Part shown: piece by piece, positions 43,629-55,805 of the stretch
How positions within the stretch are numbered: position 1 is the first letter of the stretch
Layout of the letters: each line of letters begins with the position of its first letter
Assembly: GCA_012845835.1 (NCBI GenBank)
Contig: JABAKD010000023.1
Location: 17,263,934-17,327,933, forward strand
Origin: Undaria pinnatifida
Lineage: Eukaryota > Sar > Phaeophyceae > Laminariales > Alariaceae
Reading direction: 5' to 3'
Length of the DNA: 64,000 nucleotides
The notes under the pieces: model-generated
Database searches by the model: none
Told to the model about the DNA's origin: nothing
Seen by the model: the letters and a program-made list of their open reading frames with translations, nothing else
Position numbers and translations under genes: made by a program

Positions 43629-44094
43629 TTAGTATTATTATTATTATTATTATTATTATTATTATTATTATTATTATTATTATTATTATTATTATTATTA
43701 TTATTATTATTATTATTATTATTATTATTATTATTATTATTATTATTATTATTATTATTATTATTATTATTATTATTATTATTATTATTATTATTATTAT
43801 TATTATTATTATTATTATTATTATTATTATTATTATTATTATTATTATTATTATTATTATTATTATTATTATTATTATTATTATTATTATTATTATTATT
43901 ATTATTATTATTATTATTATTATTATTATTATTATTATTATTATTATTATTATTATTATTATTATTATTATTATTATTATTATTATTATATTATTATTAT
44001 TATTATTATTATTATTATTATTATTATTATTATTATTATTATTATTATTATTATTATTATTATTATTATTATTATTATTATTATTATTATTATT
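43629..44094. repeat. (ATT)n tract, about 155 units: 3' tail of the non-LTR element
   Basis: This is an uninterrupted trinucleotide tract except for one missing base at about 43,988. On the minus strand it is (AAT)n directly after the element's 3' untranslated end (gtcggagggc). The same junction occurs in the second copy at about 57,521, so the repeat is the element's tail and not an independent microsatellite. All frames over it (poly-Leu, poly-Ile, poly-Asn) are artefacts. Confidence 0.9.
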
Positions 44095-44310
44095 GCCCTC
44101 CGACAATGTAGCGTAGATGCCTTTCCGGTATAAATCGAATATCCTTCCTTAAAGCAGCAGTAGCACCTAATATGAAGTCGAATGATCGCACCATAATGCA
44201 GTGGTATCTTCCGCCAACCATTCGCCCATTTCCTTTCCCCACATCTTCTCCTTTTATCTACTATTCCCTTTCCCTATATATACCTGATATGTTACAGCTG
44301 GGAGTCTACC

Positions 44311-47004
44311 TTAATCCTCCTCAACATTGCCACCCCAGGCCAGTGGCCTTAGTCCTCCCGATTCTTCCTCCCTTCCCCTCGCGGCCTGACGATCCCTCAG
44401 AGATAGTCTATATCGATGAACTCTGCGCGAAATCGCGACCTGAGTGGTCACAGAGATGATTTGGAATAGTCGCTCCTTGCACACGCCTTTCCGCGCTAGG
44501 GACGATGCGTCCGTCCCTCCAACGATGCTTGCCGCTACCTGATCTATCAGGTCGCTGCCTTCTTTACCGAGGCGCCCAAAGCTTTCCACCGCGAGGGTGG
44601 CGAGTTTGTAGCTGCGTTCGTCGAAGGACACCTGTCCCGGACGAGCGTAGTGGTTGCGCTTGCGCGCCTCGGAAGTGGAAGCCGCTGATCCGTTTCGATC
44701 CGCGCTTCCTGCCCGCATGTGGACCCCTGCTTGTGGGTCCGCATACGTCACGTCGAGGAGTATCGACTTGTCGCGATACTCCGGTGCCGTAGCATCTCTT
44801 AGTCCACCTGCCTCAATCACGATGTCCATTCGCAAATCCCTGTCTGCGTGGAACGGGGCTCCGCTTTCCACCTGGTGGCGGACGGACATGCTCTTAAGGG
44901 TGCGGGAGAGCGCGTGCACGAGGGGTTGGTGCTGGTTCACTTGCGCGCCCGCTCGATGACACAATCGCGCATGCCGCGTATTAACCTCCGCTTCACCGCA
45001 GCATGGGCATCTCGCCGCGAGGAATTCTTCTATCCCCAGAAATCTCTTCCCCGCAGTCACGAACTCTGATGCAGGGATGGTTCTAGCTGAGTCTACAGGT
45101 CTCGCCCTTAGGAAGGCGGTAGCCCCTGATCCCGATTGACTCCGTTGCCGGGCCCTGGCCAAGTCTCGTGTCTCCTTCTCGCCTTGAGATTCGCTTGTGT
45201 CTCGCTGGGGCCTCGTCTCGGGGAGCTGGTCCAGCGAAGAGACGTACCTCTCATAACGTACTCGGTTTACCAGTTTACCCAGTCTATGCTGCGCTTTGCT
45301 GGAGCTGATAGTTTCGGCGTCGTGTGCAGGCAACGCGTCTGTAATTGATCGCCCTGAGGCACCTTGTCCTCCTGCTCGGAATGCTCTGTCTCGCCAGCTT
45401 TCCGGTACGATGTTCGCCATGGCCTCCTCTGAAACCCCATGCACATCGCGCAGGTCCCTGATGCTGTTCCAGATGCGTCGCACGAGGTCAGAATCGGGCA
45501 GCTCCCTCCGGACTTTGTTCCCTATTGCGCCGGATAGATCAGCAAGCACCTCTGGCACCGTCGCCACCAAGCTCCCAACGGATGCTGACATCCTCCGGGC
45601 TTCAGCCGACGACAGCCCAAACCCTCCGGCCCCCGTGGACAGGCTCGCCTGCGCCTGTTGATGGGGTTGCAGGGTCAACATGTTTGTCGGGCACCCGTCC
45701 ACGAAGAACGATGATTCTTCTGCTGCCCCCGGGAGATCGAGCAATTTCTCCAACATCCACAAGGCGTTGCCATCTGCTTTTTTGCATGCAGCCAGCGATA
45801 GTTCTGGGTCCATCACGCGTTCAAGGTAGGAGGTCCGTTGAACCATGGAGCCGGTGGCAATCAGGTTGGCTGATTGCTTGTCCGGCATGCGCGACAACAT
45901 CCGCGCAAGTTGCTCCGCTCCCCCGTTTCGGACTATCTCCATTGCGCTCTCCCTCACGTACTCATCTGTGCCGATGGGCACCCCCACCACCTGAACCCCA
46001 CCACGTTCAGCGATGCTGACGCCAATGCCTTCAAGGAGGGCGATTTGTTCCGGCGTAGGTACGTGCCCCTTTGGGGGCAGGGCAACCGTTTTGCTCGGGT
46101 TGATCGCAATTCCGATGTTGGACAGCTCACGCTGGAGAAAGGGTACCACTTCCACAGTATCGGGTGTGATTTCCATCATTCCGATGCTAATATCATCTAG
46201 GTAGGCGAATGCCTCTACACCTCTTGGCTCGAACTCCTCCCGTGTCCGCTTCAGCACCGGCAGGAGCGGCATGCAGAACAACGCTGGCCCCATAGCATCA
46301 CCTTGTTGTACCCCGCTGGAGCAGTCGATCTTCCGCCTTTCTCCCGATTCCATCTGAAAAAACTCGGGCGCAGACATCTCGCCGTAACATTTTGCCACGA
46401 ACGGTGTAAGCGCCGGTACGCAAGTGGCTGCCTCCGCTAGCATAGCAGTCCGCTTCACTGTGTTGAATGCGTTGGAGCAATCGGTGAGGATCAGCCAGTT
46501 GTTTGCCTCGTGATGTATTCTTGCGCGTAGCGCTACCTGTTCCACCCCCCCTCGTACTCCGACTCCAAACTGTCTCGCTTCACGGTTGGCCTCCTCCAGC
46601 CGTGGTCGCCACTGCCGCATGGTTCCGGCCGCAATAAGCCGCCTCCACGTCATCCCCACGCACACGGGGCGGCATTTTTCACCCAGGGCAGTGGGGTTGG
46701 ATTGCAAGAAGAGCTGCCAGAATTCAGGCGGGAAGGCGTTTGGATCATCGATAATTCTTCTCCAGAAGGCTTCGATGCCAGCTCCGAATTTTTCGCGCCC
46801 AAAACCAGTCCTGATTATTGACTGTAAGTGCGAGAATCGCAGACCGTCGCTTCCCGCGCCTGATAAGGCGTTGCGAGAATTGATTACCTCGAGGGCCACC
46901 TGTGGGTCGAACTCTTCCTCCGGGCGCCAGTTGGGTACACTCCCTTCCTCCTGGTCGGTGGAACTTGTTGCCACCGCTGCTGCTGCAGCTTCGGAGACGC
47001 AGGC
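44311..47004 (-). CDS. reverse transcriptase with CCHC finger and restriction-like endonuclease
   Basis: The open frame runs from the codon after a UAG (47,005-47,007) to a stop at 44,311. Counting from the GTG at 46,974, the RT blocks are: 'GSDGLRFSHLQSII' (~40-55), 'CRPVCVGMTWRRLIAAG' (~100-115), motif A 'ILTDCSNAFNTV' (~160-170), motif B 'SGVQQGDAMGPALF' (~220-235), motif C 'AFAYLDDISIG' (YLDD at ~258, bases 46,190-46,203), motif D 'GIAINPSKTVAL' and the grip 'VQVVGVPIGTDEY'. A long linker follows, then CCHC 'CPCCGEAEVNTRHARLCH' (~655-672) and the endonuclease core 'LRMDIVIEAG' with 'DKSILLDVTY' (~711-745). The catalytic residues are present. The first Met lies inside the RT core, so an independent start is unlikely; translation should arrive from upstream by UAG readthrough or after loss of the stop. 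It performs target-primed reverse transcription. Confidence 0.85.
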   Translation of the reverse strand, partial: ACVSEAAAAAVATSSTDQEEGSVPNWRPEEEFDPQVALEVINSRNALSGAGSDGLRFSHLQSIIRTGFGREKFGAGIEAFWRRIIDDPNAFPPEFWQLFLQSNPTALGEKCRPVCVGMTWRRLIAAGTMRQWRPRLEEANREARQFGVGVRGGVEQVALRARIHHEANNWLILTDCSNAFNTVKRTAMLAEAATCVPALTPFVAKCYGEMSAPEFFQMESGERRKIDCSSGVQQGDAMGPALFCMPLLPVLKRTREEFEPRGVEAFAYLDDISIGMMEITPDTVEVVPFLQRELSNIGIAINPSKTVALPPKGHVPTPEQIALLEGIGVSIAERGGVQVVGVPIGTDEYVRESAMEIVRNGGAEQLARMLSRMPDKQSANLIATGSMVQRTSYLERVMDPELSLAACKKADGNALWMLEKLLDLPGAAEESSFFVDGCPTNMLTLQPHQQAQASLSTGAGGFGLSSAEARRMSASVGSLVATVPEVLADLSGAIGNKVRRELPDSDLVRRIWNSIRDLRDVHGVSEEAMANIVPESWRDRAFRAGGQGASGRSITDALPAHDAETISSSKAQHRLGKLVNRVRYERYVSSLDQLPETRPQRDTSESQGEKETRDLARARQRSQSGSGATAFLRARPVDSARTIPASEFVTAGKRFLGIEEFLAARCPCCGEAEVNTRHARLCHRAGAQVNQHQPLVHALSRTLKSMSVRHQVESGAPFHADRDLRMDIVIEAGGLRDATAPEYRDKSILLDVTYADPQAGVHMRAGSADRNGSAASTSEARKRNHYARPGQVSFDERSYKLATLAVESFGRLGKEGSDLIDQVAASIVGGTDASSLARKGVCKERLFQIISVTTQVAISRRVHRYRLSLRDRQAARGREEESGGLRPLAWGGNVEED

Positions 47005-55152: not shown

Positions 55153-55155
55153 TAT

Positions 55156-55183
55156 GGGCACCCTCGCGTCTGCGAGGGTGCCC
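55156..55183 (-). promoter_or_regulatory. perfect 12-bp hairpin just before the ORF1 ATG
   Basis: The stem GGGCACCCTCGC pairs with GCGAGGGTGCCC around a 4-base loop; 10 of the 12 pairs are G-C. On the minus strand the stem ends three bases (ATA) before the ATG at 55,152. Such a stem would impede scanning ribosomes, or it could be part of a structured leader. Function is inferred. Confidence 0.7.
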
Positions 55184-55805
55184 ACACTTTCGCAACCCTA
55201 AACCACTCTCTATACGGTGAGCGTTAAACACCCTTATGCTTTTCCGCGACAATGGTGAGTATAACTTCGATCCCCTCTTCCTCCCCCTGCGGGATGTCCT
55301 TTTCCTAAGGTCCTCGTATAGTAACCCTTCCCTGACTTTCCGGATCGTCGTTCCGAGTTGCCTCCCTTTGCGGAAAGTCTAATCCAGCCGGAAAACCTCG
55401 TCGATGTGATGCCCCTCCCAAGAGGTCCGCCCAACGGCGTTTGGTGTCCTACCCAAAGGTCATTCCAACGTCGTTCGCCTAGGCTCGTGCATTGGTCGCG
55501 GCTCGTACAGCAGTACGCTACCCGTGGCTTCCGACGCTTGTACAGCAGTATGTCCGTTGCGCTTCCGAAACAGACAATTTACGCCAGTCAGGACTCGCAG
55601 GCCATCAACGAGAGGTGCTGTGGTAATACCTATCCCACGGTCTTGTCGTGTTTGTCTCACAATCGTCTATGGGACAATATGCAATAATAGCTGACTGCTG
55701 AAATCTTTCTTTCACAGCTGATTTCCCCCACCTCAATATCAGTGCCTCGTCCGTATGAAGTCTAATGCCCCGCGTTGGTTTTCCGTCTTGTGGCACAAAC
55801 TGTTA

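Follow-up and report, generated by a model that had tools for sequence, protein, structure and literature searches.

A large brown-algal non-LTR retrotransposon joins an array of RING-like zinc modules to a reverse transcriptase in a single polyprotein

We analysed a window of 64,000 nucleotides (positions 17263934-17327933 of contig JABAKD010000023.1) from the brown alga Undaria pinnatifida, whose assembly GCA_012845835.1 comprises 511,146,479 bases in 68 contigs. Between 57030 and 43617 the window carries a non-long-terminal-repeat (non-LTR) retrotransposon of about 12.5 kb, with all its features on the minus strand and with many nearly identical copies in the genome. Its polyprotein of about 3,613 residues runs from an N-terminal third rich in serine, threonine, proline and arginine through a RING-like zinc array to a reverse transcriptase (RT), a CCHC knuckle and a restriction-like endonuclease (RLE). 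RLE-type non-LTR elements are commonly regarded as poor in domains, having an RT, an endonuclease and a few nucleic-acid-binding fingers, and RING-type zinc modules often help to tag proteins with ubiquitin. We consider it probable that the locus represents a brown-algal RLE-type retrotransposon that encodes this single polyprotein, would move by target-primed reverse transcription and may use its array in ubiquitin ligation. A sequence-only reading of the locus had described a non-LTR element at 43629-55185 with RT motifs including YLDD, a CCHC finger and an RMD...LLD motif at its 3' end, and with RING modules fused to the RT. The motifs were all found, the fusion of RING-like modules to the RT of an RLE-type element was supported, and the extent proved greater, adding a 3' untranslated region (UTR), an (AAT)n tail and a 5'UTR. 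The features are as follows, copies A, B and C being other copies in the same genome and P0035, P0023 and L041 being relatives described below.

43617-44094, minus: (AAT)n 3' tail of 478 nt, seen as TTA repeats on the plus strand
44095-44310, minus: 3'UTR of 216 nt, ending ...TTGTCGGAGGGC
44311-47004, minus: 897-codon frame with RT, linker, CCHC knuckle and RLE, the C-terminal part of the polyprotein
44734-44835, minus: RLE motif LRMD...LLDVTYADP
44959-45009, minus: CCHC knuckle C-x2-C-x8-H-x3-C, also seen in the alignment
46485-46462, 46314-46297 and within 46206-46189, minus: RT motifs TDCSNAFN, GVQQGD and YLDD
47005-47007, minus: TAG stop within the polyprotein frame of the window copy; the frame has no stop in copies A, B and C
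47005-48513, minus: 502-codon frame with RING6 and the N-terminal extension of the RT, joined to the RING modules in P0035, P0023 and L041
47677-47826, minus: RING6, CCCHHCCC, upstream of the RT
48396-52499, minus: 1367-codon frame holding RING1, RING2, cluster 3, RING4 and RING5
49215-49385, minus: RING5, CCCHHCCC, the start of the second RING-plus-domain module
50055-50225, minus: RING4, CCCHHCCC, the start of the first RING-plus-domain module
50508-50582, minus: cluster 3, a single CCHC zinc site with four ligands
50829-50993, minus: RING2, CCCCHCCH
51159-51287, minus: RING1, CCCHHCCC, ending in CPACR
52363-55197, minus: 944-codon N-terminal frame, rich in Ser, Thr, Pro and Arg, with its first ATG at 55152
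55198-57030, minus: 5'UTR with monomers of about 528 bp (56176-56475 and 56704-57003) and a 108-bp tandem pair (55805-56020)
57031-57284, plus: inverted piece of the element's RLE region at the 5' junction, 254 nt, 100% identical to 44710-44963
57285-57594, minus: another copy's 3' end with its (AAT)n tail, the window copy lying behind it
Copy A residues: RING1 1304-1346, RING2 1402-1456, cluster 3 1539-1563, RING4 1658-1714
Copy A residues: RING5 1938-1994, RING6 2458-2507, YLDD near 3000, end 3628

The window copy, in which low-complexity linkers separate the modules, is broken into four frames by two one-base length differences and one TAG. Aligned with copy A it showed 34 mismatches over 12,498 bases, and both length differences lie in the coding part, in poly-C runs near 52437 and 48408. 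Since C runs are also sites of assembly errors, part of this damage may be unreal. Copies A (C23:9.74 Mb), B (C30:14.41 Mb) and C (C2:7.31 Mb) were chosen because they were listed with a 3,628-codon frame, a length listed for L002, L004, L025 and L028, and were read end to end. Each consists of a single stop-free frame of 3,628 codons in which codon 16 is the first ATG; by chance, the longest stop-free frame among 200 first-order Markov sequences matching this length of 10,887 nt reached 503 codons (mean 247). Residue differences numbered 36 between A and B, 21 between A and C and 48 between B and C. The ORF1 and ORF2 assigned to the element by the sequence-only reading are pieces of one polyprotein, because the same sequence is uninterrupted in these three other copies, and a layout with two separate open reading frames was rejected. 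The zinc clusters had also been said to lie in a frame reading toward the RT; this holds in copies A, B and C but not in the window copy, where RING1 to RING5 and the RT are in different frames. The 944-codon N-terminal frame gave zero Pfam matches at E<=1.

In the same genome, 51 of 2,033 first-look candidates were scored and at least 52 matches to the RT frame were listed; the 30 that are reported as loci were 99-100% identical in protein. Polyprotein frames of 3,629 codons were listed in L007, where the frame includes N, and in L009, whose match contains a TAG, and many other loci had shorter ones. Nucleotide comparison of the RT frames, made on 26 of the 30 loci after four of other match length were dropped, gave 1-19 differences per 2,694 nt, with a median of 9. 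Where single bases departed from the majority of their alignment column, 46 changes were synonymous, 72 were non-synonymous and 5 were stops, a pattern that fits recent copies in nearly neutral drift. A 5,235-codon frame in L011 was considered as a longer array and rejected, as it contains a 5,000-nt run of N. Assembly gaps of this kind fall at the 5' repeats or in the 5' part of the element, namely on the 5' side of copy A (C23:9.75 Mb) and in the 5' part of L011 (C23:0.6 Mb). At G000:C55:12234423-12243256 (L009, L026 and L027), three units reaching from the RT to the 3'UTR stand in a row about 3.08 kb apart; they are a tandem array of the element's 3' half, joined by AAATAC-like repeats.

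Upstream of the RT we located six Cys/His clusters, matching the "at least six" announced beforehand. Five of the six have an eight-ligand RING-type order, which is C3H2C3 in RING1, RING4, RING5 and RING6; the C3HC4 spacing previously attributed to the first cluster thus gives way to CCCHHCCC. The modules that begin with RING4 and RING5 are 60% identical over 232 residues and evidently arose by tandem duplication. Two such RING-plus-domain modules are present in the window element and in P0035, and one in L041 and in P0023; the domain that follows RING4 and RING5 had no convincing match in Pfam or in profile searches. A RING6 motif test on the 30 loci detected the motif in 27; it shares the RT frame in 24 of them, and in 22 no stop intervenes. 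These are undercounts, L028 having been scored in another frame although it was read as a single frame. L012 retains only the last part of RING6 and seems cut short there, and the pattern was not found by this test in L026 and L027.

The same fusion was found in related sequences. RING modules run into the N-terminus of the RT in one frame both in P0035, which is 80% identical to the array query, and in P0023, a cluster of 52 member sequences with 43-44% identity in the module, 51% in RING6 and 56% after RING6. P0023 is evidently Ectocarpus-type, because it is 74-88% identical there to P0005, P0014, P0015 and P0016. In L041, a 7,670-bp contig whose RT is 72% identical, a stop-free frame of 1,927 codons begins inside RING1 and continues through RING2, cluster 3, one RING4/5 module, RING6, RT, knuckle and RLE. 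The RING-like array belongs to the element: copies A, B and C, as well as P0035, P0023 and L041, all have it in the reading frame of the RT. Three protein searches scored about 8,000 candidates each, so the relatives found are a lower bound, and the third returned P0035 and P0023 only. The contig search gave six relatives (L041-L046), of which L041 and L042 were read, and a scan of a viral contig collection gave zero relatives of the element.

The zinc sites were nearly all kept in these comparisons. Between copy A and L041 the zinc ligands were identical at 30 of 30 positions and other Cys/His residues of the same segments at 10 of 28 (one-sided Fisher p 2.9e-8), a count that omits RING4, which aligns to the same L041 module as RING5; RING4 taken alone kept its ligands (8/8) and 5 of 10 other Cys/His. 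The two ligands of RING1 that remain in L041 were kept (2/2), as were all eight of RING6. RING2 and cluster 3, each 42% identical to L041, retained 8/8 and 4/4 ligands, that is 12/12 together, with 0/11 other Cys/His. Against P0023 the figures were 8/8 and 8/8 (one P0023 module compared twice) and 7/7 in RING6, with 11/26 other Cys/His; against P0035 they were 7/8, 8/8 and 8/8, with 19/28. All six RING6 ligands covered in P0008 are kept, and in P0005 and P0016 the alignment reaches only the final cysteine of RING6. Linkers were 60-61% identical to P0035 and modules 79-91%; against L041, the zinc-site segments were 42-66% identical and the linker between RING5 and RING6 39%. Beside these relatives, P0010, P0021 and P0025, Undaria pinnatifida gene models with lactonase-, hydrolase- and EF-hand-type Pfam labels, carry pieces of the element protein and are probably annotation chimeras. 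L041 and L042 are retrotransposon contigs filed in a species-genome collection under bacterial metagenome-assembled genomes (Robiginitomaculum and Granulicella, respectively), and are probably eukaryotic.

The RT in the 897-codon frame matched Pfam RVT_1 (E=7.8e-15), and NCBIfam recognised the RT only as a weak group II match, with nothing above cut-off. The MD and L[LV]D of the RLE motif were present in 12 of the 12 alignment rows that reach it, 4 of the 16 rows ending earlier. An RT-RLE profile built from these 16 sequences drew R2 from the PDB at E 2.6e-11, LINE-1 ORF2 at 9e-6 and a maturase RT at 0.02, and no apurinic-endonuclease (APE) family was among the Pfam matches at E<=1 in the window frames. 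R2 was the best match, and by match strength the RT appears closer to R2 than to APE-type long interspersed nuclear elements (LINEs). A grouping of the RT with APE elements, which would have spoken against an RLE-type assignment, is made unlikely by these matches, without being settled by them. In a 24-row RT tree, drawn without named reference elements, the element stood with P0001-P0003 and adjoined an Ectocarpus-type group of seven, with P0008 beside it and P0019, P0020 and P0024 outside. The distant relative L042 (26% identical) has two overlapping frames of 933 and 1,350 codons, the first with a zinc knuckle (zf-CCHC, E 0.022) and the second with C2H2-like fingers, seen by eye, before the RT; it gave no RING match in Pfam. 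We infer that the array may have replaced ordinary fingers, and the open reading frames become fused, on the way to the brown-algal lineage, because this one distant relative has fingers and two frames.

RING models matched the array below their cut-offs. The best zf-RING_2 scores were 19.7 bits in P0023 (E 0.001; cut-off 27.3), 15.2 in the window and 14.4 in L041, and P0023 matched a second model, RING_UBOX, at E 0.0073. When a RING6 profile of four sequences was searched against the PDB, 20 of the 21 matches at E<=5 were RING proteins. RING1 gave weak matches to the RING of NSMCE1 (E 0.05) and of AMFR (E 0.16), and a whole-array profile drew the TRAF6 RING at E 0.37, alongside unrelated enzymes.

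All 30 loci share the same 3'UTR end, at a near-constant distance from the RT frame and followed by an A-rich or (AAT)n tail; L041 has ACATTGTCGGAAGGCAAA at this position, and the last 73 nt of the 3'UTR recur with 2 mismatches at 57522-57594. Tails were estimated at 9 to about 900 nt in the 30 loci, the estimates for L017 and L020 reflecting a second UTR end further on. A short tail is followed by other sequence in L005, L007, L010, L015 and L024, and by different microsatellites in some other loci. The 5' side was examined in eight copies including that of the window. Monomers of about 528 bp are also found in copies B (two) and C (four) and in L015, and the starts lie inside monomers. Copy A is preceded by a run of N, copy B begins immediately after (AAT)n and copy C a few bases past an (AAT)n stretch that appears to be the degraded tail of an older copy; in L024 and L005 short repeats stand on either side of the insert. 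The 254-nt inverted piece at the 5' junction of the window copy resembles a scar left by twin priming or template switching, or a join made in assembly. These ends suggest retrotransposition into AAT-rich DNA, sometimes into the (AAT)n tails of earlier copies. From this anatomy and the known behaviour of RLE elements, movement would proceed by target-primed reverse transcription: the RLE would nick AAT-rich DNA, the AAT-type 3' end of the element RNA would pair with the target and the RT would copy the RNA there, so that tails of older copies could serve as landing pads.

For the array, we propose that it would provide protein-docking and ubiquitin-ligase modules acting in cis on the element's ribonucleoprotein. 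This is the least sure step of the interpretation and we advance it tentatively, as a reading that may well be wrong. RING1 and RING6 would be the likeliest units to bind a ubiquitin-conjugating enzyme (E2), and they could act on chromatin, on silencing factors of the host or on the protein of the element itself. More speculatively still, the lineage might possess its own cis-acting ubiquitin ligase, with which the ribonucleoprotein would label silencing or chromatin proteins of the host, or control when it is itself turned over, as target-primed insertion proceeds into AAT-rich DNA and the tails of relatives.

Several observations weigh against this interpretation. The matches to RING models all lie below the Pfam cut-off in every protein tested (window frames, P0023 and L041); those of the RING6 profile are weak (best E 0.07, several from one protein), and neither the RING4/5 profile nor the RING2 profile matched a RING in the PDB. 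RING4 and RING5 carry C-x-H-x4-H, and canonical RING spacing is two residues shorter. Because the models stay below cut-off and the RING4/5 and RING2 profiles draw no RING, we call the modules RING-like, with RING1 and RING6 as the best candidates. As to conservation, the RING5-RING6 linker is scarcely less similar to L041 than RING2 is (39% and 42%), P0035 is without one RING4 cysteine, the first RING6 cysteine is unaligned in P0023 and cluster 3 was not found there by alignment. A collinear alignment of the R2 RLE with the endonuclease region of the element scored about 0 bits, and the knuckle has H-x3-C where excerpts of PMC5678591 give H-x4-C (CX2-3CX7-8HX4C, between RT and RLE) for RLE LINEs. 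At the ends, AATAATTCAC flanks the insert of L024 on both sides, six of its ten bases being indistinguishable from the tail, and approximately AATATT flanks L005, with about three of six bases so indistinguishable; the fetched stretches held no clear flanking repeat for L015 and no 5' end for L010.

The array could instead have taken the place of the N-terminal DNA-binding fingers of other RLE elements (one to three in Utopia-type elements, according to excerpts of PMC4640811) and recognise AAT-rich targets or bind RNA, with no role in ubiquitin transfer. The fingers of L042 stand where such a replacement would predict, its lack of a Pfam RING match and the silence of the RING4/5 and RING2 profiles agree with it, and tails and several 5' junctions are AAT-rich. 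Yet five of six clusters have the eight-ligand RING order, RING6 draws RING proteins, and the array region is not basic (R+K 0.109, D+E 0.136); we regard this function as unlikely, though worth serious consideration. Somewhat more doubtful is a non-enzymatic role in which the zinc modules would be a structural or oligomerisation scaffold of the ribonucleoprotein, as in gag, and the RING-plus-domain module a duplicable repeat unit. The RING4/RING5 duplication here and in P0035, single in L041 and P0023, is what such a unit would produce, and copies A, B and C have no separate ORF1 for a gag-like job; RING1, by contrast, has C-x-V-C and CPxCR, which we take to be the pattern of E2-binding RINGs. 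Conservation of the ligands does not tell this scaffold from the proposed ligase. Finally, the split frames of the window and the low-complexity linkers between modules could be thought to show that the RING region is a host gene or a different element into or beside which the retrotransposon inserted, the alternative that the sequence-only reading had itself named. It is contradicted by the same in-frame order in copies A, B and C, by the 24 of 30 loci that have RING6 in frame with the RT and by L041, P0035 and P0023, and we consider it extremely improbable, although the array may once have been captured from a host gene.

Set against known systems, the element resembles the R2-group RLE elements (R2, R4/Dong, CRE, NeSL/Utopia and Hero) in its LINE-type RT, its CCHC knuckle followed by an RLE and its one open reading frame, and many of these prefer repeats or microsatellites as targets, as far as the excerpted texts go (PMC3636483, PMC4640811, PMC5678591); among solved structures the RT profile matches R2 itself best. 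It differs in its approximately 3,613 residues with a RING-like array, where the excerpts describe the few N-terminal fingers of Utopia (PMC4640811), and in its tandem 5'UTR monomers of about 528 bp and its H-x3-C knuckle. In Ectocarpus, extracts of PMC12477816 report two LINE/CRE families with 4,821 copies; CRE is likewise an RLE clade and these families are brown-algal, but those extracts mention no RING, and the CRE families may or may not correspond to our elements. The Ectocarpus matches P0005 and P0011 group with the element in the tree, and P0013, P0016 and P0022 are further matches. NeSL/Utopia elements with an N-terminal Ulp1-like protease offer a second RLE case of a domain of a ubiquitin-like system upstream of the RT (PMC4640811, in excerpt); theirs is a protease and implies removal, whereas the RING-like modules would possibly serve attachment, and no Ulp1-like protease matched in Pfam at E<=1 in the four window frames. 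CR1/L2 elements carrying a PHD show that a LINE can bear a zinc module of the chromatin-reader kind (PMC4120745, in excerpt), but they are APE elements that have the PHD for the most part in ORF1 or at the beginning of their only open reading frame, and they lack an array joined to the RT of an RLE element. In dinoflagellates and charophytes, retrotransposons have captured cytosine methyltransferases, a comparable uptake of a host-type domain but of another kind and in other lineages (PMC5890265). Our searches of open-access papers turned up no RING-bearing non-LTR element; subscription papers, Repbase and supplements lie outside them, so that an annotation may exist elsewhere; the "ring finger" in the excerpted PMC5678591 is part of the RT hand.

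Elsewhere in the window, frames on the minus strand at 4186-7355 resemble, by eye, Copia-type gag and RT fragments, and a 286-codon frame on the plus strand at 29393-30253 contains a C-x8-C-x8-C-x3-H stretch. Tandem duplications, 91-100% alike, were found at 41469-41742 (137-bp units), 28265-28775 (258-bp units) and, within the 5'UTR of the element, 55805-56020 (108-bp units).

The element thus presents one polyprotein of about 3,600 residues, in natural intact copies, with a RING-like array whose zinc sites appear to persist among divergent algal lineages. Both the protein's size and the element's position behind the tails of other copies are relevant to the full-length copying of long RNAs. 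Should the array bind DNA or RNA, RING-like modules would be able to replace classical target-recognition fingers; should it be a ligase, the element would offer a concrete test of a retrotransposon that steers host ubiquitin and chromatin.

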